DNA of 64,000 bases, from assembly GCA_011389745.1 (NCBI GenBank), contig JAABTQ010000001.1, positions 80,497 to 144,496 of the forward strand. Reading direction: 5' to 3'. This DNA comes from Desulfobacteraceae bacterium. GTDB taxonomy: Bacteria; Desulfobacterota; Desulfobacteria; Desulfobacterales; SKZT01. Numbering within the stretch: the stretch's first letter is position 1; every line of letters starts with the position of its first letter. The notes beneath the pieces are model-generated. The model was given only the letters and a program-made list of their open reading frames with translations, made no database searches and was not told the DNA's origin. Position numbers and translations under genes: made by a program. Of the stretch, positions 10,138 through 59,013 are shown piece by piece.

Positions 10138-10171
10138 AAAAAAGCAGTGATATTAATATCACTGCTTTTTT
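10138..10171. terminator. Bidirectional intrinsic terminator
   Basis: A perfect 34-bp palindrome with GCAGTGATATT on one arm, A-run on the left and T-run on the right. It works in both directions and lies just after the OsmC stop codon on the minus strand. It also argues against the long upstream start of the PilZ gene. Confidence 0.9.
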
Positions 10172-10201
10172 ATTATTTTTTTTATTGGTTGAAGTAAACA
10201 A

Positions 10202-10774
10202 CTATTTTTCCAGTTCTACCGTTACAGGAACCGCCCGGGTTATGGTATCGTAAACCGGAGAATAGGTCGGGCCCAGTTTAAGGATTTCTTCGAGCTTTTC
10301 AGGCGGAGCATCCGCATCAATCTTAAAAAACATCCGAATCTGTTCATACCCCCGGTGAACATCGTCGGATAGTCCTAAAAAACCTTGAAGATCAATATCG
10401 CCCTCCAGCCTGGATTCCACCGAATTCAGTTTTATTCCCTTGGCCGCGGCGTGATAAACTATGGAAGTCGTCACACAGGCCGCTAAAGCGGTCAGGAGAT
10501 ATTCCACCGGATTAGGTCCCTGGTCATTTCCCAGAAGCAAGGCAGGTTCATCCGCATCCAGTTGGAACGGGGTATTGTGATCATGATCTTTTTGTGTACC
10601 ATGAAAGTTTGTAATTACAGTGCTATTCAGTCCGCCATTGATCCATTTATTTTTAGCCCGGAACTTGAATTTTCCAATAATTGGAGCATTTTTTACAGCA
10701 TCTATTGTTTCGAAAAGCTGGTCCACATTCACCCCATTGACTGTTACGGGTTCTGCTTTTTGAGTTTCAGCCAT
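10202..10774 (-). CDS. OsmC family protein
   Basis: 190 residues from the ATG at 10774, which has a perfect AAGGAGG seven to eight bases upstream; the TTG/ATG further up is not needed. The OsmC/Ohr fold is recognisable from GPNPVEYLLTALAACVTTS and the late TITRAVPV strand. OsmC/Ohr proteins reduce organic hydroperoxides with a pair of cysteines. Only the first cysteine (in ALAACVT) is present here. The second, usually in a CPV-type motif, is replaced by SPV. A peroxidase mechanism is therefore doubtful, and a one-cysteine relative (YhfA-like or substrate-binding) is as likely. It is monocistronic, ending at a strong terminator. Confidence 0.85.
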   Translation of the reverse strand: MAETQKAEPVTVNGVNVDQLFETIDAVKNAPIIGKFKFRAKNKWINGGLNSTVITNFHGTQKDHDHNTPFQLDADEPALLLGNDQGPNPVEYLLTALAACVTTSIVYHAAAKGIKLNSVESRLEGDIDLQGFLGLSDDVHRGYEQIRMFFKIDADAPPEKLEEILKLGPTYSPVYDTITRAVPVTVELEK

Positions 10775-10867
10775 TTTATTTTCCTCCTTGAAATATGAGA
10801 TCGTCATTTTTTTAACCCGGATTTAGCCTTGCGATCGCCGGCTCCTAAACCGGGTTATACCTCTGCG

Positions 10868-11011
10868 AATTGATTCAACTTGTATAGTGGTATTTCATTA
10901 TTGATTACAAAAATAACATTATCAACGCAGCAGGAACGTTAAATGCCATTCTGGCATCTAATTTCCGGGTTTGGAAAGATGGCTGGAGATAAATTTTAAG
11001 TTGAATCAATT
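10868..11011. repeat. Gene-free 347-bp gap containing a 144-bp inverted-repeat-bounded segment
   Basis: Between OsmC (ends 10774) and the small coiled-coil gene (ends 11155) I see no convincing gene. AATTGATTCAACTT at 10868-10881 is repeated exactly in inverted orientation at 10998-11011. Inside sits a smaller hairpin, ATGCCA-ttc-TGGCAT, near 10940. The arrangement looks like a small non-autonomous element or a structured untranslated region. No target duplication is evident. Confidence 0.45.
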
Positions 11012-11154
11012 TATCCTCTATAATTTGACCTTTGAATTGAAATGTCAAATTTATTTAAGGCATGAGTTTGATTTTTAAGGCGAACCGCTGGGTAGTTCTC
11101 CGGTTTTTTGATTGATGGTTTTGAGGACTTTTTATTAAATGCTTTAACTCATAT

Positions 11155-11352
11155 TTACAGTATAGATCTTTGAGGAGGTTCTTTTTTTGCATCAAGCATG
11201 GCGCGTATCTGTCTTTCTTCAGCCCTGGCCTTTCGAAGTTTATTTTCCATTGTCTCGCGTTTTTCAAATGGGGCATTTTCCATTTCCTTTTCCAGCTTTT
11301 CCACTTCATTGATGATGCGATAAAGATCCTTTGCTATCAGACGAATGCTCAT
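11155..11352 (-). CDS. Small conserved coiled-coil protein
   Basis: 65 residues starting MSIRLIAKDLYR and continuing as one charged helix with heptads (EVEKLEKEMENAP, then EKRETMENKLRKARAEER). It is likely to form a coiled coil. From memory, similar short proteins occur in Desulfobacterota, but I assign no function. It follows the DUF2156 gene by 34 bp on the same strand, so it may be the last gene of that operon. An overlapping frame of 84 codons (11055-11309) has no such pattern and I regard it as a shadow. Confidence 0.6.
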   Translation of the reverse strand: MSIRLIAKDLYRIINEVEKLEKEMENAPFEKRETMENKLRKARAEERQIRAMLDAKKEPPQRSIL

Positions 11353-11386
11353 GTGTTTAAAATTTCCCTTCCAAACAAGACGGTTT

Positions 11387-12289
11387 TTAATTTAACCTGG
11401 ACAAGATAACTTTAAACTTGCGATTAAAATCAGCTGGTTGATAAGATAACTTTGCCTTTCGAAGGCCTTTATCTCCCAGATCCTGCATACGATTTACCAA
11501 CCTGAATTTTTCGTTGGTCTCTTTGAAAGCACGCGAGACAAACATCTGGTTGATGGCTTGATAGGACCCTTGATATGACGGATTTCCTTTTTCAAAATGA
11601 ATCAACAAAGTATCCTGAGTAAGGGTCTCCGCTAAGGTATAGGCCACGATTTTTTTATCAATGATAATTGCACCGCCGCTGATTTCTTTAAGCTTATTCC
11701 ATGCATTTAATACCTTTTCGATCACCCTGTTTTCCGCGGCAAGTGCATCATTGAGGTCACAATCTCTCCATTGGCACCAGTCCGATTGCATGGCAAGCAC
11801 ATGCTCAATCATTTCTTTTCCAAAAGAAATGTACTCAAAATCATATTTTTTCAGAAATTGATTCAAAAGGTTTTTCTTTTTGTGAAAACGATTTCCTTTC
11901 AGCTCTATCAGATCCTGAGCATCATACAGATAATCCCACTGGCCTCGATCGTTTTCAAATAAAACCTGATCCCCTAAATGTTTCTTCCAATTTTGCAAAA
12001 GTAATTCCGGAATCCTTTCAAATTGAAGTTTTTCCTGTTGAAAATTCACAAGTGACTCTTTCCAGTCAATATCTTTCCAGTTCCCTACAGGGGTCCAATA
12101 AACCGTTTGAGGCTTTGTCTGCTTTATCCAGACAAGCCTTTCTTCCCATGCCCAGACTAGCCCATATTCCTGGGCCCAACCCCATAAATTTACAAAACTG
12201 TAATCGGATGTCTTTACCGGACAGGAAGCCAGTCGCTTTAAATAGTCATCCTGAAGGTCAATACTGATGGGTTCAAATGTATAAGGCAT
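11387..12289 (-). CDS. DUF2156 (phosphatidylglycerol lysyltransferase C-terminal-like) protein
   Basis: 300 residues. The start (IDLQDDYLKRL, then TSDYSFVNLWGW) and the end (GGAIIIDKKIVAYTLAETL ... HFEKGNPSYQGSYQAINQMF ... NRMQDLGDKGLRKAKLSYQP) match the DUF2156 family. It has a GNAT-like tandem fold related to aminoacyl-tRNA-dependent transferases such as the MprF catalytic domain. It is soluble here, with no membrane part. The ATG at 12289 has AAGGA about eight bases upstream. It lies 15 bp after the B12-fold gene, so the two are probably co-transcribed. The substrate is unknown. Confidence 0.8.
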   Translation of the reverse strand: MPYTFEPISIDLQDDYLKRLASCPVKTSDYSFVNLWGWAQEYGLVWAWEERLVWIKQTKPQTVYWTPVGNWKDIDWKESLVNFQQEKLQFERIPELLLQNWKKHLGDQVLFENDRGQWDYLYDAQDLIELKGNRFHKKKNLLNQFLKKYDFEYISFGKEMIEHVLAMQSDWCQWRDCDLNDALAAENRVIEKVLNAWNKLKEISGGAIIIDKKIVAYTLAETLTQDTLLIHFEKGNPSYQGSYQAINQMFVSRAFKETNEKFRLVNRMQDLGDKGLRKAKLSYQPADFNRKFKVILSRLN

Positions 12290-45686: not shown

Positions 45687-46913
45687 ATGGAGAAAAGTGT
45701 GAATAACAAACAAATAGAAGAATCAAATAAATTATTGGGCGATCAAACTGTAGAGATGCTTCTGAAAGTACATCAAGATGCTCTCTGGATACTGGAGAAT
45801 ATGGGTGTGGGCTGCAAACAGCCGGATATCCTGGAACTTTTTAAAAACTATGAAAAGGATGGATTGGCTGTTGTTTATGATAATCGCATCTATCTCATGG
45901 AGGATTTGGTAAAGCAGTGTCTTGAGAGTGTACCCGGCATAAAGGATTTTTTTGTTCCAAAAAGCTCCTTTTTTGTGGGTGGAACCGCACCCTACATTTA
46001 CGATGACAAAGCCGGCATCGGAGGCGTGATACCGACTCCGGATCATGTAAAAAAAATAGCTCAAATCGCCGAATCTAAAGATATTATTGCCGGAATGGGC
46101 CGCGGGGTAAAACTCAATGATGAATCCGTACAGATGGATATCATGGTAAAAAACTGTTCCAAACCGCTATATGTTGCAGTCACCAGCGACAAGTCATTGG
46201 CAAGGGCTTGTGAAATTTATGAATCCCGCAAAAACATCATGATTGTTTTCTGTCTGACACGCCCCCCGCTTGAGGTGAATGAAAATTTCTCAGAAGCGTT
46301 TTACAAAGTTGCAAAAGCAGGTCTTCCATTGTTTATTTCTGCCATGCCCATGGCAGGAATCAGCGCACCCTACTCCTATAACGGTGTGCTTGCCATGACC
46401 CATGCCGAGGTACTTTTCGGTATATGCGCAGCTCAATTGATCAATCCTGGAATCACCTGTATTCATGCGGGATTTCCTACAATTGCAGATCCAAGGATCG
46501 AATACAACCCAAACTACGGGCTTGTCAGCCATAATTTATTAAACATTCTGATGAGTCATCTCAATATGATTCTTGACTTGCCTACGTGCCAGAATGCGGG
46601 TGCAACCCATGAAGAACATCCGACACCGCGGGCTTATGCAGATGGAAAAATGGGACAGGCTTTGTGCATCAAATATGGTTTTCATATGATTCGGCATCCT
46701 TTTGCGTTTTTACGTTACCTGATCGACTTTTCCATAGAAAAACTGGAAAAATCATCGCAGATGGCTGTCAATGTCACACCCGAAGATACGCCCGATGTGG
46801 AAATGCCTGCTTATGATCCTCGCGCCATGGAGTCGATTCAGAGAACCGGTTTTGGAATGTACATGGACGATCCACTGACGACTGCGAATATCGGCAAAAT
46901 TTTTGTTGAATAG
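45687..46913 (+). CDS. MttB-family (non-pyrrolysine) methyltransferase, short form 1
   Basis: 408 residues of the trimethylamine-methyltransferase superfamily. Family segments: VGGTAPYIYDD near residue 92, ISAMPMAGISAPYSYNG, THAEVLFGICAAQLINPGIT and IHAGFPTIADP. No in-frame TAG (pyrrolysine) interrupts it. It should move a methyl group from a substrate to the corrinoid protein encoded downstream. It is about 70 residues shorter than typical MttB/MtgB. A GTG at 45699 with GGAG six to eight bases upstream is an equally good start. It pairs with the second short form (49586), which has the same motifs. Confidence 0.85.
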   Translation: MEKSVNNKQIEESNKLLGDQTVEMLLKVHQDALWILENMGVGCKQPDILELFKNYEKDGLAVVYDNRIYLMEDLVKQCLESVPGIKDFFVPKSSFFVGGTAPYIYDDKAGIGGVIPTPDHVKKIAQIAESKDIIAGMGRGVKLNDESVQMDIMVKNCSKPLYVAVTSDKSLARACEIYESRKNIMIVFCLTRPPLEVNENFSEAFYKVAKAGLPLFISAMPMAGISAPYSYNGVLAMTHAEVLFGICAAQLINPGITCIHAGFPTIADPRIEYNPNYGLVSHNLLNILMSHLNMILDLPTCQNAGATHEEHPTPRAYADGKMGQALCIKYGFHMIRHPFAFLRYLIDFSIEKLEKSSQMAVNVTPEDTPDVEMPAYDPRAMESIQRTGFGMYMDDPLTTANIGKIFVE

Positions 46914-47035
46914 CTCATCTGATCAAATTTGAAACCGTCACCTGACAAAAGTGCCGGTAAATATAATCAAACAGCCCGTTTCTTGCGCCTATTGCGAGGC
47001 GGCAATCTTAAAATACGAAACCAAAGGAGAAACAT

Positions 47036-48700
47036 ATGTGTGGTATAGCCGGATGTTTTGGCACCAAAGACGAAAAAACCATCAACAAAATGCTGGATGC
47101 CTTAGTGCATCGGGGACCCAATGACCGGGGTATACACAGTTTTGGAAACAAGGCTGTTTTTGGTCACACCCGACTGTCTATTGTAGACGTGGCCAAAGGC
47201 CATCAGCCCCTTCTTGCCGAAGATGGCCGATTGGGCCTCATTTGCAACGGTGAGATTTATAATTTCAGAAACATCCGAAAAGAGCTTAGGGACGATTATA
47301 ACTTTAAAACCCGTTCGGATTCGGAAGTTATTCTTCACAATTACAGAGAAAAAGGTCCCTCGTGTGTCGAAGATCTCGACGGCATGTTTGCCTTTGCTAT
47401 CTATGATGGAGATAATTACATGCTGGCACGGGACCCTATTGGTATCAAGCCTCTTTATTACGGTTACTACAGGGACAACATGTACTTCAGCTCCGAGCTG
47501 GGTGCAATGAGCTTTGCAGGTGTGGATGAAGTACACGAATTTCCGGCAGGGCATTACTACACGCCCAGAGAGGGATTTGTCGAGTATTACCGGGTTCCCG
47601 ACGTGGAAGACCATTTGCTCACCGATATCGATGAAGCCAAAGAGTTGATCAGAAAAACTTTTATCCAGGCTGTTAAAAAGCGCTTGCTGGCCGATCCTGA
47701 AGTTCCAGTGGGTTCTTTTTGCTCCGGAGGGCTCGACAGCAGTCTGGTGGCAGCCATTGCAGCCGATGACATTCCTAATTTGCATACCTTTGTGGTGGGA
47801 ATGAAAGATGAAAACGGCAATTTCAGCGATGATATCAAAGCTGCGAAAATCGCAGCAAAACATATCGGTTCCACTCATCATGAGCTGGTTTTTACTGAGC
47901 AGCAATACTATGACGCACTTCCTCAGGTTATCAACAAGCTGGAAACTTATGATCCATCACTGGTTCGTTGTGCGGTGCCTTGCTATTTCACATGCAAGCT
48001 GGCTGCGGATTATGTGACCGTGGTACTGACCGGTGAAGGAGCGGATGAAGTTTTTACCGGTTACCATTACATGAAACATTTTCCGGAAGATAAACTCAAC
48101 GAAGAAGCCAGGCGCTGTATCGGAAATCTTCACAATATCAATCTTCAGCGGGCAGACCGCATGGGAATGCTTTTCAGCCTCGAACTGAGGGTACCTTTTC
48201 TGGACGTCGATATGATCGAATTGGGAATGAAAATACCGCCGGAACTTAAAATCCGTGAACACCGGGGCGCTCGTATCGAAAAATGGATCCTGAGAAAAGC
48301 TTTTGAAGGTACGGGTTATCTTCCGGATGAAATCCTGTGGCGTTATAAGGTCCAGTATACACAGGGTGCCGGATGTGAAAGTCTTGGTGAAGAAATGGCC
48401 GAAAAAATGATGACCGATGATGAATACCATCAAATTAAAGAACAAAATCCCAAGGCCGTGATCAACAGTAAGGAAGCTGCCTATTACTTTAAAATTTTCA
48501 AACAGTATCATCCCCAGGAATCGATCTTAGGATCCATCGGCATCTGGACCGGATTCGATTTTGCCGAGGAAAGAGAAAGGGTTTCCGGCACTGTAGATGG
48601 TGATTTAAAGCATAATCATGCAGAAGAAAATTCGAAGGAAGCCGGCAACTTCGAGATGGAAGAATTGGCTGATGAAGGCACAGAGGCTTCCGCAGCATAA
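47036..48700 (+). CDS. asnB: Asparagine synthase (glutamine-hydrolysing)
   Basis: 554 residues, like E. coli AsnB. Cys2 (MCGIAGCFG) is the glutaminase nucleophile. RLSIVDVAKGHQPLL, NGEIYNF and the ATP-pyrophosphatase loop SGGLDSS (230-236) are intact. It normally makes asparagine from aspartate, glutamine and ATP. AAAGGAG lies six bases before the start. Its place inside a methyltransferase operon (122 bp after the first MttB gene and 20 bp before a hydrolase) is unusual. It may amidate a carboxyl group of the pathway substrate, or simply be the cell's AsnB captured by the operon. The C-terminal 40 residues are an acidic tail. Confidence 0.92.
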   Translation: MCGIAGCFGTKDEKTINKMLDALVHRGPNDRGIHSFGNKAVFGHTRLSIVDVAKGHQPLLAEDGRLGLICNGEIYNFRNIRKELRDDYNFKTRSDSEVILHNYREKGPSCVEDLDGMFAFAIYDGDNYMLARDPIGIKPLYYGYYRDNMYFSSELGAMSFAGVDEVHEFPAGHYYTPREGFVEYYRVPDVEDHLLTDIDEAKELIRKTFIQAVKKRLLADPEVPVGSFCSGGLDSSLVAAIAADDIPNLHTFVVGMKDENGNFSDDIKAAKIAAKHIGSTHHELVFTEQQYYDALPQVINKLETYDPSLVRCAVPCYFTCKLAADYVTVVLTGEGADEVFTGYHYMKHFPEDKLNEEARRCIGNLHNINLQRADRMGMLFSLELRVPFLDVDMIELGMKIPPELKIREHRGARIEKWILRKAFEGTGYLPDEILWRYKVQYTQGAGCESLGEEMAEKMMTDDEYHQIKEQNPKAVINSKEAAYYFKIFKQYHPQESILGSIGIWTGFDFAEERERVSGTVDGDLKHNHAEENSKEAGNFEMEELADEGTEASAA

Positions 48701-48720
48701 TTCGTGAAGGACGAACGGGA

Positions 48721-49572
48721 ATGGAAATCACAATACTGGGCTCTGGGGGATGCATGGTCATCCCCAAGCCCTGCTGCGATTGCCCGGTCTGTGTCGAAGC
48801 CCGGCAAAGAGGTGTTCCCTATGAACGAACAGGTCCAAGTGCATTTATTCACGATGAAAACCTGCTGATCGACACTCCGGCGGAGATTGCATTACAGCTC
48901 AACCGATGCAAAATCATGCACGTGGATTATCTGATATTCTCGCATCTGGATCCCGATCATATCGAGGGTATCAGGGTTGTGGAACAAATCGCCCTTGATT
49001 TTCGCACCTGGAAGGCTTACCCGGAAAAGAAAATCCAGCTGATTCTTCCGGAATACCTTTACAATCGGCTGAAAAAAATCCGATCCGCTTACGGCCCGCT
49101 GCTTGAATACTATGAAACACAAGGGTTTATTGAAACAACATTTTTTAAAACCCATATAAAAGTCGGTGACACTGATATCACCGGCATTGGGGTGGACAGG
49201 GGTACGCAAATTGCCTTTATATACGTGATTGAAAAACAGGGAATAAGGATTGTTTATGCCCCCTGCGATATCAAGCCATTTCCCGAAAACCGCCCTGAGA
49301 TTGCTGATGCCGACCTTTTGGTTATCCAGCCAGGGATTTTTGAAACTGGTCTGAAACACGGGTTTGCTTATCCAAAGCATCACATTTCCAGAACCACCCT
49401 GTATACATTTGAAGAAACTCTGGAATTATCACGCAGAATCGGTGCAAAGCGTGTGCTTTTTATTCATCTGGAGGAATACTGGAACCGAAGTCATGACGAA
49501 TACCTGAACATCACAAATGATATCGATGGAATCGATTTTGCCCACGACGGATATCACGCCCATATCAAATAA
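48721..49572 (+). CDS. PhnP-like MBL-fold metallo-hydrolase
   Basis: 283 residues. ITILGSGG starts the fold, and Cys18, Cys19, Cys21 and Cys24 match the zinc-binding cysteine cluster of PhnP-like cyclic phosphodiesterases. The metal motif reads SHLDPDH (H75, D77, D79, H80): the second His of HxHxDH is Asp. Later ligands VDRGTQ, APCDIKP and HLEEYW are plausible. PhnP cleaves phosphoribosyl 1,2-cyclic phosphate, but no phn gene is near. The operon position, 20 bp after asnB and 13 bp before MttB form 2, suggests a substrate-specific hydrolysis step. Confidence 0.8.
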   Translation: MEITILGSGGCMVIPKPCCDCPVCVEARQRGVPYERTGPSAFIHDENLLIDTPAEIALQLNRCKIMHVDYLIFSHLDPDHIEGIRVVEQIALDFRTWKAYPEKKIQLILPEYLYNRLKKIRSAYGPLLEYYETQGFIETTFFKTHIKVGDTDITGIGVDRGTQIAFIYVIEKQGIRIVYAPCDIKPFPENRPEIADADLLVIQPGIFETGLKHGFAYPKHHISRTTLYTFEETLELSRRIGAKRVLFIHLEEYWNRSHDEYLNITNDIDGIDFAHDGYHAHIK

Positions 49573-49585
49573 GAGGAAATATATC

Positions 49586-50824
49586 ATGTATGACATTAAA
49601 ACAGAATCCGTCGATATGGAGAAAACCAAAATGAATGAGAGAAATAAAGACCTTGATAATATAGACCTTCTTGACCTGATTCATAAGGATGCCCTTCGGG
49701 TGCTGGAAGAAGTCGGAGTTCGCGTTGAATCACAACGTGTCCGACAAATTTTTGAAGATACCGGAATGGCGGCTTACGATGAGGAAACCAGACATCTGCA
49801 TATTCTTTCACCATTAATCGAACAGACACTTTCAACCGCACCTAAGCGCGATCAATACTGGATTCCGGAAAATTCATTCGGCATAGGCGGAACCGCTCCT
49901 TTTGTATACGACGATACGACCCGCGACTTGATACCACCTACGTTTGAACATCTGAAAAAAATCGCCACCATTGCCAATGAAGCCGATGTGGTGAACTTCA
50001 TGGCAAGGGGCGTACTTCTTAAAGGTGAAGAAGTCAAAGTCCTGGATACTATCATCGAGCACTGTGACAAACCAATATATGCCGCTGTTATTACCGAAAA
50101 AGGTATTGCGAGGGCCAAAGAGATTGTTAATACCCGCGGAAAACTGACCATTCAATTTTCCATTATCAACAGTCCGTTAAACCTGATCAACAGTATGATG
50201 GATTCATTTTTTTCATGCGTGGAAAACAAGATTCCCATTTATGTCTCCACCATGCCCATGGCGGGACTTTCGGCCCCTTATTCCATGTCCGGCCTCCTGA
50301 CGCTGACCCATGCTGAAGGGCTGTTCGGCGTTGCTCTTACCCAGCTCATCAATCCTGGTGTGACGGTCGTACACGCAGGATTGCCGTCCATTGCCAACAT
50401 CCAGAAAAACTATTCGGTGGACCTGGCAATGGTATCCCACAATGTGGCCAATTTACTTCAGGATAAAATAAACCGAAAACTTGGCCTTCCATCAATCCAG
50501 ACCGCTTGCACCACAAGCCAGGATCATCCCAATCAACGAGCCGAGCAGGATGCCGTCAATGGATTTTCAATAATGAAAAAGTACGGGTTTCACCATATGC
50601 GCCATTGCTTTGGTTTTTTGCGGGAACTGATTTCATTTTCCATCGCCAAGCTGGAAAGACATATCGATCTTTGCCGTGAAACAACACCTGACCAGGCTCC
50701 GGAATTTACCTTAGAACCTTATGATACCGAAGGCTTTGATTGTATTGCACGAAACAGCAGCAACCCCAACTATATGAGAGATGATCATACCCTGAGAAAT
50801 ACGGGAAAAGCTTTTACGGAATAA
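49586..50824 (+). CDS. MttB-family (non-pyrrolysine) methyltransferase, short form 2
   Basis: 412 residues from the ATG at 49586 (AGAGGA eight bases upstream; the frame extends to 49517 without a better site). It matches form 1 segment for segment: GGTAPFVYDD, STMPMAGLSAPYSMSG, THAEGLFGVALTQLINPGVT and VHAGLPSIANI. There is no in-frame TAG. Like form 1 it lacks the first ~70 residues of classic MttB, but each starts with a similar helical segment. The two may be paralogous subunits or act on different substrates. It precedes the corrinoid gene by 41 bp. Confidence 0.85.
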   Translation: MYDIKTESVDMEKTKMNERNKDLDNIDLLDLIHKDALRVLEEVGVRVESQRVRQIFEDTGMAAYDEETRHLHILSPLIEQTLSTAPKRDQYWIPENSFGIGGTAPFVYDDTTRDLIPPTFEHLKKIATIANEADVVNFMARGVLLKGEEVKVLDTIIEHCDKPIYAAVITEKGIARAKEIVNTRGKLTIQFSIINSPLNLINSMMDSFFSCVENKIPIYVSTMPMAGLSAPYSMSGLLTLTHAEGLFGVALTQLINPGVTVVHAGLPSIANIQKNYSVDLAMVSHNVANLLQDKINRKLGLPSIQTACTTSQDHPNQRAEQDAVNGFSIMKKYGFHHMRHCFGFLRELISFSIAKLERHIDLCRETTPDQAPEFTLEPYDTEGFDCIARNSSNPNYMRDDHTLRNTGKAFTE

Positions 50825-50865
50825 ATATTACTATACTACTTGTTGATAAAAAGGAGAAAATAACC

Positions 50866-51501
50866 ATGGCAAATCTTCAGGATCTTACCGAAGCAGTGAT
50901 AAAAGGAGATGAAGATAAAATTAAACTGACAATTCTGGAACTTTTAAATGCGGGCACTCCCGCCAAGGAAATCATGGATGACGGCTTGATCGCCGGCATG
51001 AACATTGTCGGTGGAAAAATGGAAACCGAGGAAATGTTTATCCCTGAAGTTTTAATGTCCGCAAAGGCCATGAGTGCCGGTGTGGAAATATTAAAACCTC
51101 AGCTGACCGATGAAGAAAACGCCGCTTCAGGAACAATGATCCTTGGAACAGTTCAGGGCGATCTGCATGACATAGGTAAAAACCTGGTGAAAATGCTTAT
51201 GGAAGGAGCCGGTTTTTCAGTGATTGACTTGGGTACGGATGTTCCGCCTGCGGCTTTTGTGGATGCAATAAAAGAACATAATGCCGATATCGTAGCAATG
51301 TCCGCCCTTTTAACCACCACCATGCCCAAAATGAAAGAAACCATGGAGGCTATGGAAAATGCCGGCATACGCGATCAGGTTAAAGTGCTTGTGGGCGGTG
51401 CTCCGGTCACTGAAAATTATGCCGATGAAATAGGCGCCGACGGATATGGCTACGATGCAGGATCTGCTGTCAGAATTGCTAAAGAATATATGACTAATTA
51501 A
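50866..51501 (+). CDS. Methyltransferase corrinoid protein (MttC/MtbC-like)
   Basis: 211 residues. The N-terminal helical cap (EAVIKGDEDKIKLTILELLN) is followed by the B12 domain with the base-off motif D99-L-H101-D-I-G104 (VQGDLHDIGKN). The SALLTTTMPKMKETM loop and VGGAPV strand complete the domain. The cobalt-bound methyl group is passed from the MttB protein to a second methyltransferase. Only one corrinoid protein serves three MttB-type proteins. AAGGAG precedes the start. The activating RamA ATPase and the corrinoid:tetrahydrofolate methyltransferase are not in the window. Confidence 0.95.
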   Translation: MANLQDLTEAVIKGDEDKIKLTILELLNAGTPAKEIMDDGLIAGMNIVGGKMETEEMFIPEVLMSAKAMSAGVEILKPQLTDEENAASGTMILGTVQGDLHDIGKNLVKMLMEGAGFSVIDLGTDVPPAAFVDAIKEHNADIVAMSALLTTTMPKMKETMEAMENAGIRDQVKVLVGGAPVTENYADEIGADGYGYDAGSAVRIAKEYMTN

Positions 51502-51525
51502 TAAAATTAAGGAAGGAAACCCTAT

Positions 51526-52974
51526 ATGACAACCATCTGCAGCAATCAACAGGCATTGAACAGCCCGTTGGCAAAAAAGCTTTCCGAGGACCAATGCCGC
51601 AAACTCTACTGGGCATGTCTCGAAATTCTGGAGCGAACCGGAGTCCAGTTATTTGAACAGGAAGCCGTCGACTTGCTGAAAAAAGCCGGTGCACACATCT
51701 CGGACGGAAATCGTGTCCGGATACCGGCAGGCCTGGTGGAAAAGGCCTTTGCTACGGCACCCAAAAAGATTACCCTTTGTGATCGAAACGGAAAACGGGT
51801 GATACAGGCAGGAGGGCACCAGAGCTATTTCGGAACCGGTTCAGATTGTCTGAACATTTTGGATCATCGTACCGGCGAACGCCGACAGGCTGTCTTGAAA
51901 GACATTGAAGAAGGCATGAAATTGTGCGACGCATTGGAACATATTGACTTTGTCATGAGCATGTTTCTTCCATCAGATGTCCCTCAAGAGACCCTGGACC
52001 GCTATGAAATGGAGGCCATGCTCAACTATACGACCAAACCGATCATTTATGTGACCACGGAGTTTTCAGGTTGCATGGATGCCGTCAAAATGGCTGAAAT
52101 CGTTGCCGGAGGACCGGATGCCTTGGCGCAAAATCCTGTTGCCGCCTGCTATATCAATGTTACAACCGGACTTCGCCACAATAAAGAGGCCCTTCAAAAG
52201 CTTTTGTACCTTTCTGAAAAAGGGCTTCCTTTTACCTATATTCCTTCAGCGCAGGGTGGTGTAACAGCACCCATTACCATTGCATCCACCATGGCCGTCA
52301 ATAATGCGGGCGTACTTGCCGGGCTGGTCATATCCCAGTTGAAACGTGAAGGTGCTCCTTTTATCATGCCCGGGTGGGGCGGCAATATGCTTGACATGCG
52401 CACCACAATTCAGCCCTATGCTGATCCTGAAAAACGGGGACAGGCAATCGATTTCGCCCACTTTCTGGGAATTCCCACTTTTGGTCTGGCAGGTTGCAGC
52501 GAATCCAAACTGGTGGATGAGCAAGCTGCGGCCGAAGCTGCGCTTACCCTTTTTACCGATGCCATATTCGGCGGCAACTTTGTCCATGATGTCGGATACC
52601 TGGAATCCGGCCTTTGCGGCTCTTTACCACAGTTGGCCATTTGTAATGAAATTTTAAGCTGGCTGGATGCTTTCATGAAAGGTATTGAAATTTCCGATGA
52701 AACCCTGTGTCTCGATTTAATTGATGAAATCGGCCCCGAGGGCCAATACCTTGATTGCCGGCACACTCTGGACCATTTCCGGGAACGCTGGTATCCGAAT
52801 CTGTTTGATCGCTCCAGCTACGACGGATGGCAGGCCAAAGGGGGAAAATCTTTAGGGGAAAGAGCCGTAGAAGACGTCGATCGCATCCTTCAGGAACATA
52901 AACCGGAACCTCTTCCAAAAGACATTGCCAAGGCAGTACACAAAGTCACGGAAGACGCTGAAAGTAAAATCTGA
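51526..52974 (+). CDS. MttB-family (non-pyrrolysine) methyltransferase, full-length form
   Basis: 482 residues, the usual length of MttB/MtgB. FGTGSDCLNILDHRTGERRQ, PSAQGGVTAPITIASTMAVN and GGNFVHDVGYLESGL are family landmarks. There is no in-frame TAG, so it belongs with pyrrolysine-free members such as glycine-betaine, carnitine or proline-betaine methyltransferases. It lies 24 bp after the corrinoid gene and ends the operon before a strong terminator. It is probably the primary substrate methyltransferase; the short forms are accessory or act on related compounds. The substrate is unknown. Confidence 0.9.
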   Translation: MTTICSNQQALNSPLAKKLSEDQCRKLYWACLEILERTGVQLFEQEAVDLLKKAGAHISDGNRVRIPAGLVEKAFATAPKKITLCDRNGKRVIQAGGHQSYFGTGSDCLNILDHRTGERRQAVLKDIEEGMKLCDALEHIDFVMSMFLPSDVPQETLDRYEMEAMLNYTTKPIIYVTTEFSGCMDAVKMAEIVAGGPDALAQNPVAACYINVTTGLRHNKEALQKLLYLSEKGLPFTYIPSAQGGVTAPITIASTMAVNNAGVLAGLVISQLKREGAPFIMPGWGGNMLDMRTTIQPYADPEKRGQAIDFAHFLGIPTFGLAGCSESKLVDEQAAAEAALTLFTDAIFGGNFVHDVGYLESGLCGSLPQLAICNEILSWLDAFMKGIEISDETLCLDLIDEIGPEGQYLDCRHTLDHFRERWYPNLFDRSSYDGWQAKGGKSLGERAVEDVDRILQEHKPEPLPKDIAKAVHKVTEDAESKI

Positions 52975-53007
52975 TACAGCCCCTAAAAACTCATTTTATT
53001 CTCACTC

Positions 53008-53050
53008 AAAGCGCCGGATTTTCATATCATCATGAAAATCCGGCGCTTTT
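53008..53050 (+). terminator. Strong intrinsic terminator of the methyltransferase operon
   Basis: AAAGCGCCGGATTTTCAT pairs perfectly with ATGAAAATCCGGCGCTTT around the loop atcatc, followed by T-run. It lies 33 bp after the third MttB stop and closes the operon. Confidence 0.95.
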
Positions 53051-53264
53051 TACTGTTTAACAGTATGACAAAAAAACTTTGCCGAAATGGAATCACTCAA
53101 TCTGGTATTCACAAAAATAATACAGTGAAAACTTGGATAAAATACACTCTATTCCTGATTTTATTTTCGGGCTTATGACTTATTTTAGTTCCATAAGAAA
53201 TATAAATTAATTGGTTATCGAGGATTTAACAACTCTCACCCAAAAAAAAGGAGAAATTTTAATC

Positions 53265-53576
53265 ATGTCTATGCCAAAAGATGAAATTCAAAGTGAAATG
53301 ATCAATGCATGGAGAACCTATTTGAATTCCCTTCAGACCGCCATGGATAAAATGGATAAAGATATCAAGGAAGCCTCTGAGATGGCCGGTGTATGCACCA
53401 ACGAGTGGTGTGAGGCCACCGAGCATTATATTGATGAACTATCCAATTCCCTGTTTTCCATTAGCGAGCCTCGCTGGTCTGATCCGGTGGACTCGAAAAA
53501 GCTGAAGGAACTCAAAAAAAGAGTTTATGACCTGTATGCGAACTACAAAAGCGTATACCAATCGATTAACACTTGA
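53265..53576 (+). CDS. Small hypothetical helical protein
   Basis: 103 residues from the ATG at 53265, with AAGGAG about 12 bases upstream; ATG 53271 is an alternative. It is helical and acidic, with a CTNEWC cysteine pair near residue 42. AWRTYLNSLQTAMDKMDKDI looks like an amphipathic coiled coil. I recognise no family. It lies beyond the operon terminator, so it is probably expressed separately; a link to the methyltransferase cluster is possible but unsupported. Confidence 0.55.
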   Translation: MSMPKDEIQSEMINAWRTYLNSLQTAMDKMDKDIKEASEMAGVCTNEWCEATEHYIDELSNSLFSISEPRWSDPVDSKKLKELKKRVYDLYANYKSVYQSINT

Positions 53577-53712: not shown

Positions 53713-54111
53713 ATGCTGTATATCGGACATTTTTCTTTTGACGAGATCAGTGAAAATTCGGAACGACACCATGGATACTTTACTTGTATGGTTGACACGG
53801 ATAACGTGGATATGTCCGTTGAATTATTCCAGTCTCTTATTAAGAAGATGAAAGTGGAAAACAGCAGCTTTACGGATATTGCCGCGGTTTACGTCGAAGA
53901 TATTTTCGAGATTCGAAAAGTTCCGAAAACCGCGACAATTCTCCGCATGCAGTCATCAGCCGGAGAATTTCCAAAATCAGTGAGCCGGACCCTGCCGTTA
54001 ATAGAAACCGAAGAAATTACCGCTTACGGGTGGGCACCTGATGTTCGCAAAATCCAAGCCGCGGAAAAAGACAAGGTTATGGAAATGGAACCTTTCTTGA
54101 GTTTCACATGA
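53713..54111 (+). CDS. Hypothetical protein
   Basis: 132 residues beginning MLYIGHFSFDEISENSERHH, mixed alpha/beta, ending in an acidic helix and EPFLSFT. GGAGG lies five bases before the ATG, a good ribosome site. No signal peptide, membrane helix or known motif is visible. It shares orientation with the 53265 gene 136 bp earlier. A function cannot be given. Confidence 0.55.
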   Translation: MLYIGHFSFDEISENSERHHGYFTCMVDTDNVDMSVELFQSLIKKMKVENSSFTDIAAVYVEDIFEIRKVPKTATILRMQSSAGEFPKSVSRTLPLIETEEITAYGWAPDVRKIQAAEKDKVMEMEPFLSFT

Positions 54112-55991: not shown

Positions 55992-56522
55992 ATGAAGCTT
56001 GCCGAGATGCTCTGCCGTTGGATAGATGCATTAAACTTCTGGGTGGGCCGATTCGTTTCCTGGGTGACTTTACTGGTGGTTCTGGTTGTATTTGTTGATG
56101 TGGTGATGCGCTATGCCTTCAGAACCACTTATGTTTTTACCCAGGAAATGGAATGGCATCTTTTTTCATTTATTTTTCTGATGGGTGCAGGATATACCCT
56201 CTTAAAAGACGGCCACGTGAGGGTGGATATTTTTTATCAGCGTATTAGTCCCAAAGCACGGGCCTGGATTAATCTGATGGGCGTATTATTGCTGCTGATC
56301 CCGGGCTGCTATCTTGTCATCACCACATCCTATAGATTTGCCTATACATCCTGGTTGATCCAGGAAGGATCTCCCGACCCTGGAGGTATCCCCTACCGTT
56401 TTGTGATCAAATCCATGATTCCTATCGGTTTCACGTTGATTTTATTACAGGGATTTTCCCTTGGATTAAAAAGCCTTTTAGAGATTCTTGGAAAATTTGA
56501 AGGCTATGAAAGGAAATCATGA
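55992..56522 (+). CDS. TRAP transporter small permease (DctQ)
   Basis: 176 residues with four hydrophobic helices. VFTQEMEWHLFSFIFLMGAG and KDGHVRVDIFYQRISP are the hallmark of the small TRAP membrane subunit, which pairs with the large permease. AAGGATGATCA precedes the ATG. It overlaps in spacing with the large subunit (stop directly followed by ATG). First gene of the Q-M-P operon. Confidence 0.95.
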   Translation: MKLAEMLCRWIDALNFWVGRFVSWVTLLVVLVVFVDVVMRYAFRTTYVFTQEMEWHLFSFIFLMGAGYTLLKDGHVRVDIFYQRISPKARAWINLMGVLLLLIPGCYLVITTSYRFAYTSWLIQEGSPDPGGIPYRFVIKSMIPIGFTLILLQGFSLGLKSLLEILGKFEGYERKS

Positions 56523-57848
56523 ATGGAATATCTCCCGGCGTGGATGTTTTTAGCTTTGACAATCCTTCTGATGTTCGGTTTTCCGGTAACTTTCACATTG
56601 CTGGGAACAGCCCTGGTTTTTGGTCTAATCGGTTTCGGATGGTCGTTTTTTAATTTACTTCCATTGCGTATCTGGGGTGTCATGACCAATGTCACCCTTT
56701 TGGCCGTACCGCTTTTTGTTTTCATGGGAGTAATGCTGGAACGATCCGGATTGGCAGAGGAGTTGCTGGATACCATGGGACTCTTATTTGGCAGATTGCG
56801 CGGAGGGTTGGCCATATCGGTGGTGGTGGTCGGTGCCTTGCTAGGGGCCTCAACAGGAATTGTGGGTGCAACTGTTGTAACAATGGGCCTTCTGGCCGTG
56901 CCTACCATGATGCGCAGGGGATATAAAAAGGAACTGGCCACCGGTACCGTTTCAGCAGCAGGTACCTTGGGACAGATCATTCCTCCCAGCATTGTTTTGG
57001 TATTGATCGGTGATATTGTGGGAGTCCCGATCGGAAACCTTTTTATGGGGGCGGTGTTCCCGGGTCTTGTTCTGGTGTTGCTCTATATTTTGTATATCAT
57101 GATAGCTTCTTTTATCTGGCCCGATAGCGCACCGGCCATTCCCCGGTCGGAACTAGCCGCCTACACACCGAAAAAATTATTTCTCAAAGTTTTACGAGCT
57201 CTTTTTCCCCCGCTTTTTTTGATGGTTGCCGTTTTAGGTTCCATCTTTGCAGGAATTGCCACCCCTACCGAAGCCGCGGCTGTAGGAGCTGTCGGTGCCA
57301 CTTTGTTGACCATCGCCAATGGAAGATTCAATCTTAAAGTTCTGCAGAAGGTCATGGATTCAACCACGCAGCTGACCTGTATGGTTTTTATTATCCTGGT
57401 AGGTGCCGCGGCTTTTGGGCTTGTTTTTCGGGGGACCGGTGGAGATGAACTGGTGCGAAATTTTCTAAGCACTTATGCCGAAACTCATGGCAAGTGGTTT
57501 GTTTTAGCCATGGTCATGGGACTAATTTTTGTAATAGGTTTTTTTCTGGATTTTATCGAAATTACTTTTATCCATGTCCCTGTTCTTGCCCCCATTATGA
57601 TAGAATTCGGTTTTGACCCGGTCTGGCTCTGTATCCTCATTGCTGTAAATCTTCAAACTTCTTTTATGACCCCGCCTTTTGGCTTTTCCCTTTTTTACTT
57701 AAAAGCGGTTACACCTCCTGAAATTTCCACCGGACATATTTACCGGGGTATTATTCCTTTTGTTATTTTTCAATTAATAGGTTTGTTGTTGATTGTATTT
57801 TTTCCGGTGCTGGTGAACTGGCTTCCCGAGGTTGTATATTCCCGTTAA
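56523..57848 (+). CDS. TRAP transporter large permease (DctM)
   Basis: 441 residues with about 12 hydrophobic helices. FGFPVTFTLLGTALVFGLIG, GATVVTMGLLAVPTMMRRGY and QIIPPSIVLVLIGDIVGVP are DctM signatures. It carries the substrate across the inner membrane using a Na+ gradient. It starts at the base after the DctQ stop and is followed by the solute-binding protein. Confidence 0.95.
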   Translation: MEYLPAWMFLALTILLMFGFPVTFTLLGTALVFGLIGFGWSFFNLLPLRIWGVMTNVTLLAVPLFVFMGVMLERSGLAEELLDTMGLLFGRLRGGLAISVVVVGALLGASTGIVGATVVTMGLLAVPTMMRRGYKKELATGTVSAAGTLGQIIPPSIVLVLIGDIVGVPIGNLFMGAVFPGLVLVLLYILYIMIASFIWPDSAPAIPRSELAAYTPKKLFLKVLRALFPPLFLMVAVLGSIFAGIATPTEAAAVGAVGATLLTIANGRFNLKVLQKVMDSTTQLTCMVFIILVGAAAFGLVFRGTGGDELVRNFLSTYAETHGKWFVLAMVMGLIFVIGFFLDFIEITFIHVPVLAPIMIEFGFDPVWLCILIAVNLQTSFMTPPFGFSLFYLKAVTPPEISTGHIYRGIIPFVIFQLIGLLLIVFFPVLVNWLPEVVYSR

Positions 57849-57909
57849 TGCTAAGCTATATCCGGCATTTAAAAATCTTATCCGATCTTTTCCCTGAAAG
57901 GAGAAAAAA

Positions 57910-59013
57910 ATGAAACGAAGAGAATTCTTAAAAAAAACCGGAATCTCTGCCGCTGCTGTCGCATCGGCAACCATCGCAGCCCCGACAGTATGGGCAAAAG
58001 AAAAGACCTATCAATGGAAAATGGTTACCACCTGGCCACCCAATTTGCCTATTCTGCAAACAGGTGCCGAGCGTTTTGCCAAAAGAGTGGAAATTGCAAC
58101 CAATGGGCGGATTAAAATTCACGTCTTTGCCGCAGGCGAACTGGTTCCAGCCCTGGAAGTCTTTGATGCCGTTTCAAGCGGAACGGTGGAAGTGGGAAGT
58201 GGGGCTGGTTATTACTGGGCCGGCAAGGTCCCGGCAGCCCAATGGTTTTCAGCAGTACCTTTCGGTTTCAATCCGCAGGGGATTAATTCCTGGTTTTACA
58301 GCGGCGGTGGTTTGGAACTATGGGAGGAAACCTATGCTCCCTTTAATCTGGTACCTCGTCCCCAGGGAAACACGGGGGTACAGATGGGTGGATGGTTCCG
58401 CAAACAAATGAACACCATTGATGATTTTAAAGGACTTAAAATGCGTATCCCCGGGCTGGGCGGCAAGGTAGTGGCAAAAGCCGGAGGAACTGTAGTCCTG
58501 CTGCCCGGAGGAGAAATTTTTACCTCTCTGGAACGCGGCGTGATTGATGCCACGGAATGGGTAGGGCCATTGCATGATTTACGCATGGGATTTTACCAGG
58601 CCGCTAAATACTATTACTATCCCGGATGGCACGAACCCAGCACTTGTCTGGAGGTCATATTCAACAAGAAAGTTTATGATGACCTTCCTGCAGATCTCAA
58701 AACCATCCTGGATGCCATTGCCATGGAAACCAATCTTTGGAGTCTGTCCGAATTTGAAGCCTCCAACGGTGCTGCTTTACAGGAATTAATCACCAAACAC
58801 AAAGTCGAGCTGGTGCGGTTTCCGGAAGAATTGCTTAACAAACTGCGGGTAATGGCTGAAGAAGTCTTGGAGGAGGAAGCAAACAAGGATGCCATGTCAC
58901 GCAAAGTGCATGAGGCTTATAAAACCTTTAAAAAACAAGTGGGGATCTGGGGTACCGTGGCTGATAAAGCTTATTTTGACCTGATTGCTGATAAATATTC
59001 ACTAAAAGCATAG
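57910..59013 (+). CDS. TRAP transporter solute-binding protein, TakP/DctP type with Tat-like signal
   Basis: 367 residues. The N-terminus MKRREFLKKTGISAAAVASA is a twin-arginine-like signal, cleaved before KEKTYQWK. WPPNLPILQTGAERFAKRVE, GRIKIHVFAAGELVPAL, GGWFRKQMNTIDDFKGLKMR and GVIDATEWVGP are the features of the subfamily including TakP, which binds 2-oxo monocarboxylates. Thus a pyruvate/2-oxobutyrate-type or lactate ligand is plausible; other carboxylates remain possible. AAAGGAG precedes the ATG. Confidence 0.92.
   Translation: MKRREFLKKTGISAAAVASATIAAPTVWAKEKTYQWKMVTTWPPNLPILQTGAERFAKRVEIATNGRIKIHVFAAGELVPALEVFDAVSSGTVEVGSGAGYYWAGKVPAAQWFSAVPFGFNPQGINSWFYSGGGLELWEETYAPFNLVPRPQGNTGVQMGGWFRKQMNTIDDFKGLKMRIPGLGGKVVAKAGGTVVLLPGGEIFTSLERGVIDATEWVGPLHDLRMGFYQAAKYYYYPGWHEPSTCLEVIFNKKVYDDLPADLKTILDAIAMETNLWSLSEFEASNGAALQELITKHKVELVRFPEELLNKLRVMAEEVLEEEANKDAMSRKVHEAYKTFKKQVGIWGTVADKAYFDLIADKYSLKA

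Follow-up and report, generated by a model that had tools for sequence, protein, structure and literature searches.

A six-gene operon encoding three MttB-superfamily proteins

The window, the whole 64,000-nt stretch analyzed here, comes from a Desulfobacteraceae bacterium (GCA_011389745.1, contig JAABTQ010000001.1, forward strand, 80,497–144,496). The source genome (G000) comprises 3.6 Mb in 80 contigs, and the window corresponds to G000:C1:80497-144496. Six genes in one direction, followed by a terminator, make up the locus:

45687..46913, + strand: M1, short MttB-superfamily protein, clade 1 (408 aa; PF06253, 79.9 bits; TIGR02369, 72 against a cutoff of 525)
47036..48700, + strand: AsnB, putative amide ligase of the asparagine synthetase B family, 'c2' type with intact glutaminase residues (554 aa; PRK09431, 618.7 against a cutoff of 499)
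48721..49572, + strand: MBL, metallo-beta-lactamase-fold hydrolase, distantly PhnP-like, HxDxDH motif (283 aa; PF12706, 44.6 bits)
49586..50824, + strand: M2, short MttB-superfamily protein, clade 2 (412 aa; PF06253, 108.3 bits; model pLDDT 91.5)
50866..51501, + strand: Cor, MtbC/MtgC-like corrinoid protein (211 aa; B12-binding and B12-binding_2 domains)
51526..52974, + strand: M3, full-length non-Pyl MttB homolog with Cys at the Pyl position (482 aa; PF06253, 300.4 bits)
53008..53049, + strand: intrinsic terminator with an 18-bp perfect stem (−32.6 kcal/mol, z = −11.1)

All six reading frames are open, and the gene order, strand, sizes, gaps and terminator agree with the original prediction, which had been made from the sequence alone. 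Profile searches also recovered the families it had named (MTTB three times, Asn_synthase/GATase, Lactamase_B_2 and B12-binding), and all six reading frames lack internal TAG, in agreement with the proposed absence of pyrrolysine codons. From M1 to M3, the intergenic gaps are 122, 20, 13, 41 and 24 bp. Since the M1–AsnB gap in relatives is mostly 12–128 bp, with one overlap, M1 is probably part of the same operon despite the 122 bp that separate it from AsnB. An in-frame ATG at 49517 is an alternative start of M2 and would yield a protein of 435 aa. None of 200 shuffled sequences was as stable as the terminator stem.

A search of the window against Rfam gave no match. Two short reading frames right after the terminator (53211–53576 and 53713–54111) have no Pfam or NCBIfam match. 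TRAP transporter genes (DctQ, DctM and DctP; 55992–59013) lie 3 kb downstream of the operon, past an EamA exporter; their position beside the cassette is not conserved in the mapped relatives.

Conservation of the gene set

The gene order is kept in other genomes far beyond chance: within one Desulfobacterota order, many genera share the M1–AsnB–MBL–M2 core, which is also found in other orders. MBL orthologs (55–70%) were detected in 5 of 58 relatives (E<1e-100, the source genome included), in 8 genomes of a phylum-wide sample of 395 and on 10 named contigs. Every such MBL gene adjoins M1/M2/AsnB genes, with one exception (L025), in which the neighbors are AsnB, M3b and Cor. Among named records, the same cassette occurs in Desulfobacterales, Desulfobacteraceae and Desulfotignum MAGs. 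M1 and/or M2 are present in 59 of the 389 genomes of the order (searched with M2 as the query). Some loci appear to represent the same record (for example L018 and G002, L021 and G478, L025 and G731), and loci were therefore tallied per genome wherever a count is of consequence.

The recurrent layout is MarR, M1, AsnB or its paralog AsnB6, in some cases a FAD-dependent DAO, MBL, M2 and a CN-hydrolase. The conserved unit consists of an AsnB-family ligase and M2, usually M1, and often MBL, a CN-hydrolase amidase, a FAD amine oxidoreductase, MarR and Opu neighbors. Opu betaine ABC transporters are encoded near the cassette in several relatives. The composition varies, however: several cassettes have no MBL, four M2 loci have no AsnB of any type, and the operon of the window has no amidase or FAD enzyme gene next to it. 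Cor and M3 are a variable extension of the core, directly following M2 in only a minority of loci (G000, G002, G036, G050, G455 and G568); in the last five, the gene after Cor is an M3 ortholog (77–84%). Other genomes have a different set upstream of M1, namely an activation-domain protein, M3b, an MtrH-like enzyme and CorB. M1 without the rest of the core adjoins SoxA/SoxD-type and Opu genes in G008, G497, G461, G642, G572 and others, and in G008 a CN-hydrolase gene lies between SoxA and M1. More generally, sarcosine-oxidase-type genes, ETF, CN-hydrolase and Opu transporters recur next to M1 or M2. One locus (L109) reads M2-DAO-EtfB-EtfA-CNH and has no AsnB.

A protein of the MmgE/PrpD family is repeatedly encoded next to M1 or M2 loci, along with Opu transporters (L086, L089, L101, L109, L111 and L112). 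A protein of about 1500 aa that starts with MCGIV and contains a GlmS-like SIS region is encoded in the source genome (G000:C6, L051, 3115–7677), where it adjoins MetH-activation-domain and RACo genes, and near M1 or M2 in several others (L089, L090, L099, L111 and L112). We considered this protein as another AsnB substitute and rejected the idea, as it is a GlmS-like SIS/amidotransferase relative scoring far below the cutoffs of the GlmS family models. A plasmid search for M1 and M2 relatives returned only distant MttBs of about 22% identity, mostly from Sinorhizobium and Leisingera.

Two short MttB-like families

Enzymes of the MttB superfamily transfer methyl groups from quaternary amines to corrinoid proteins. 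The PF06253 scores of M1, M2 and M3 all exceed the cutoff of 25, placing the three proteins in this superfamily. None of them reaches the cutoff of the trimethylamine methyltransferase equivalog TIGR02369 (M2 scores 85 bits and M3 364), and none contains Pyl. The original prediction had set the two short proteins apart as a distinct type, and the phylogeny bears this out. Among the 106 rows of a tree (97 of them different), M1 (46 rows) and M2 (41 rows) each form one clade, with SH-aLRT values of 99 and 97, respectively. Together, the two sister clades are set apart from M3-type proteins, MtgB and MttB by a single branch with a length of 1.71 changes per site, although a few long branches make the deeper placement unsure. 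In the window, M1 and M2 are 38% identical to each other, and each is only 16–23% identical to M3, MtgB and MttB.

We then compared the structural model of M2 with MttB. Residues 20–371 superpose on MttB residues 17–395 (Z 39.8, rmsd 2.4), and residues 372–412 remain unmatched. In the alignment, MttB positions 440–480 are empty in all M1 and M2 rows. In MttB, residues 396–452 form the dimerization loop contacting MttC and residues 453–495 the anchoring helices (PMC9842639). As judged from the model and the alignment, M1 and M2 thus retain an intact MttB barrel and lack the second half of the C-terminal corrinoid-docking loop together with the anchoring helices. Without a complete loop and anchor, they depart structurally from the corrinoid-dependent MttB type. 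The barrel and active-site shell of M2 are MttB-like; the Pyl334 position of MttB is mostly occupied by Thr in both families, and an Arg is invariant at or beside the Tyr364 position.

M3, Cor and corrinoid partners

M3 aligns to MttB residues 11–489 (7xcl). With its full-length barrel, docking loop and a Cor gene directly upstream, it is a putative corrinoid-dependent MttB-type methyltransferase. Cor clearly belongs by sequence to the same superfamily as the MtgC/MtbC corrinoid proteins, and it scores below all curated cutoffs consulted (NF047996, 227 against 370; TIGR02370, 202 against 215; NF047995, 183 against 310; NF041607, 203 against 350).

It had been proposed that this single corrinoid protein must serve all three methyltransferases. 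Our results speak against that necessity: Cor and M3 accompany only a minority of loci, M1 and M2 have no docking C-terminus, and some near-complete genomes with M1 or M2 have no match to a methyl-carrier protein. TIGR02370 and PF02607 searches found no cap-domain protein in G527 (99% complete, M1 and M2), G564 (98%, M1 and M2) or G001 (95%, M1), nor in G013 and G451. PF02607 matches were only CarH-like in G537 (100%, M2) and G024 (97%, M1), and G495 has one divergent MttC-like protein. These searches covered cap-domain proteins in draft genomes. At this level, they suggest that some M1/M2 genomes may have no methyl-carrier corrinoid protein, or only one of the CFeSP or core-domain-only B12 kind.

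The original prediction had suggested looking nearby in the genome for ramA and a corrinoid:H4F methyltransferase. Elsewhere in the source genome, RACo-type activators are encoded on contigs C40, C66 and C6, and contig C45 carries the gene of a MeH4F:corrinoid methyltransferase.

The AsnB slot

AsnB exceeds the cutoff for asparagine synthase B (PRK09431) and has the N-terminal Cys along with the glutaminase and PP-loop residues. Cys2, Arg49, Asn74, Asp98 and the PP-loop are kept in nearly all of its 37 relatives. The c2 type is found in only 36 of the 389 genomes of the order, and its distribution tracks that of M2: 24 genomes encode both, 12 only AsnB, 15 only M2 and 338 neither (Fisher OR 45, p 1.7e-19, an optimistic value, as the genomes are related and not independent). 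The tie between AsnB and MttB enzymes therefore exceeds chance. Where the two co-occur, they lie within 8 kb of each other in 16 of 23 cases. AsnB also adjoins long MttB and corrinoid genes at loci without M1 or M2 (L125 and L025/L127) and long MttBs at L130 and L137. At L130, a 414-aa protein with a SAM-type methyltransferase domain (10169–11410, − strand) is encoded between a corrinoid gene and the c2-type AsnB.

In other cassettes, the slot is filled by the paralog AsnB6; in each of the 20 rows examined, Cys2 and the counterpart of Arg49 are missing. Mapped onto the M2 tree, the slot type (glutaminase-intact or Cys-less) changes 7 times, with at least 4 changes forced by well-supported branches, although an ancestral tandem like that of L114, followed by differential loss, would look the same. 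Repeated swaps of this kind suggest that the slot most likely holds an amide ligase of the pathway, which fits better than a bystander.

The source genome has both types: c2 AsnB is part of the operon described here, and AsnB6 lies on C77, close to an Opu operon. The Cys-less type is the only other Asn_synthase-family protein over the cutoff. The possibility that asnB is the sole asparagine synthetase of the genome, transcribed on its own, holds in part: c2 AsnB is the only glutaminase-competent one found, yet it is not an isolated gene. Since AsnRS is present and AsnA was not found in this genome, c2 AsnB may also supply asparagine in a housekeeping role.

Several related ideas were rejected. 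The CN-hydrolase does not behave as the missing glutaminase of AsnB6, because 15 cassettes with it comprise 6 with Cys-less and 9 with intact AsnB. The DPSLVR motif is common to other AsnB paralogs of the order and thus does not mark a changed substrate; the residues around the aspartate site give no proof of another substrate either. Finally, several AsnB6 cassettes occur in genomes without c2, and a constant need for both types together is therefore not supported.

The MBL hydrolase

Residues H75, D77, D79, H80, D183 and H249 as well as C19, C21 and C24 (CxCxxC) are invariant in 15 aligned MBL sequences. The modeled fold is closest to 6b9v (a PhnP-family diphosphatase), PqqB and PhnP. Nevertheless, MBL scores 30 bits against a cutoff of 272 for PhnP cyclic phosphodiesterase (TIGR03307) and has HxDxDH instead of HxHxDH, so the phosphoester role once proposed for it now looks weak.

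A possible route for betaine-type osmolytes

In anoxic marine sediment, glycine betaine and similar osmolytes rank among the main sources of carbon and nitrogen. To our knowledge, there is no good account of how anaerobes use them once the first demethylation, the corrinoid-dependent one, has taken place. Because the AsnB–MttB link exceeds chance, the gene order is kept and the short MttBs are distinct, a demethylation-related pathway is a fair reading of the operon. The Opu transporters, sarcosine-oxidase-type genes, ETF and CN-hydrolase recurring beside M1 or M2 support a betaine-type substrate. Our tentative interpretation, to which we assign a probability of about 0.4, is that the module mediates catabolism of a methylated ammonium (betaine-type) osmolyte through an ATP-dependent amide intermediate. 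M3 and Cor would take a first methyl group off the quaternary amine and hand it on via a methyl-H4F enzyme whose gene lies outside the operon. At the expense of ATP, the AsnB-type enzyme would amidate a carboxylate, either of the substrate or of its demethylated product. M1 and M2 would act on this intermediate or on its tertiary or secondary amine; in some relatives, flavin enzymes (DAO with ETF, or SoxBDAG) could strip the methyls that are left; and the amidase and the MBL hydrolase would free the acid. Spending ATP on derivatizing the substrate before an MttB-type step would be analogous to the choline route, in which phosphorylation by MthK precedes demethylation by MthB (PMC12155760). Against this reading count the uneven makeup of the cassettes and the asparagine synthase B features of AsnB, whose product may just be asparagine.

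Possibly, though with somewhat less confidence, M1 and M2 are enzymes with the MttB fold that have become independent of corrinoid proteins and either catalyze another reaction on a betaine-derived intermediate or use a different methyl acceptor. This concerns only the M1/M2 step and is compatible with the amide route. The C-terminal truncation, which removes part of the MttC-docking region, the long branch, the invariant Arg and the genomes with no PF02607 match or only CarH-like ones all point in this direction; the draft state and scope of the corrinoid searches, the MttC-like protein of G495 and the MttB-like barrel and active-site shell count against it. The fuller proposition, in which M1 and M2 constitute a corrinoid-independent MttB branch, with neither pyrrolysine nor a methyl-carrier protein, acting with the AsnB-type ligase on an amidated betaine-derived intermediate, strikes us as unlikely.

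It is hardly more probable that a methyltransferase operon has captured an ordinary asparagine synthetase in the form of AsnB, with the three MttBs being ordinary corrinoid methyltransferases for three different quaternary amines. The PRK09431 score, the complete set of glutaminase residues and the asparagine-related gene complement of the source genome would all fit, but few genomes of the order have AsnB, its distribution follows that of M2, a Cys-less paralog can take its place in the slot, and it recurs beside other MttB genes. The genomes without a detected carrier protein also count against this reading. We find it improbable that the AsnB-type enzyme and CN-hydrolase run a cycle of protecting groups, akin to glutamylation or aspartylation, around a FAD amine dehydrogenase in the manner of the Puu pathway for putrescine. 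Without the glutaminase Cys, AsnB6 could accept an amine other than glutamine-derived ammonia as the nucleophile, and DAO and amidase share many of the cassettes, L109 included. However, L109 has no AsnB, a glutaminase-intact type fills the same slot, and AsnB6 has Ser in the position of E. coli AsnB Arg325, a residue with an important role in that enzyme.

Relation to known systems

The amide route has its closest parallel in the MthK-MthB-MthC-MthA choline:THF system of Eubacterium limosum, in which ATP-dependent substrate derivatization is encoded beside an MttB-superfamily gene and the route includes a corrinoid protein and a methyl-H4F enzyme; in contrast, that system uses a kinase rather than an AsnB-family ligase, has one full-length MttB, and has no MBL hydrolase or short MttBs (PMC12155760). 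M3 and Cor resemble MtgB and MtgC of the MtgB/MtgC/MtgA glycine betaine demethylation system of Desulfitobacterium hafniense, and superposing the M2 barrel on MtgB gives a Z of 38.6. However, M1 and M2 are only 19–23% identical to MtgB over the aligned part and lack its C-terminal end, and Cor falls below both MtgC cutoffs. The dual GBT demethylase/methionine synthase MtgBCD of marine bacteria likewise involves pfam06253 betaine-demethylation proteins with downstream demethylation genes nearby, whereas AsnB, MBL and short MttBs are not described in the parts of that report consulted (PMC12478193). Beta-lactam and carbapenam synthetases are AsnB-fold ligases that, like AsnB6, have no glutaminase Cys; nonetheless, AsnB6 matches AsnB (1ct9) best, at E 1.7e-46, with CarA (1q15) and BLS (1jgt) trailing far behind at E ~1e-12. 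Our literature searches found no published description of the cluster. Its components are of familiar kinds; what is new to us is their combination and the pair of short MttBs.

The MttB superfamily is very large and mostly unassigned. A widespread module of an amide ligase and a diverged MttB-fold pair offers named genes and a testable order of steps. If the proposed route is correct, part of the superfamily performs chemistry other than corrinoid methyl transfer, and the annotations 'trimethylamine methyltransferase' and 'asparagine synthase' in these genomes are probably misread. Should M1 and M2 be corrinoid-independent and act with the AsnB-type ligase on an amidated intermediate, anaerobes would have a new way of removing or processing N-methyl groups.

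The source genome also encodes a fourth, very divergent MttB-family protein of about 480 aa (G000:C2, L039, 8788–10230), which lies on a very long branch.
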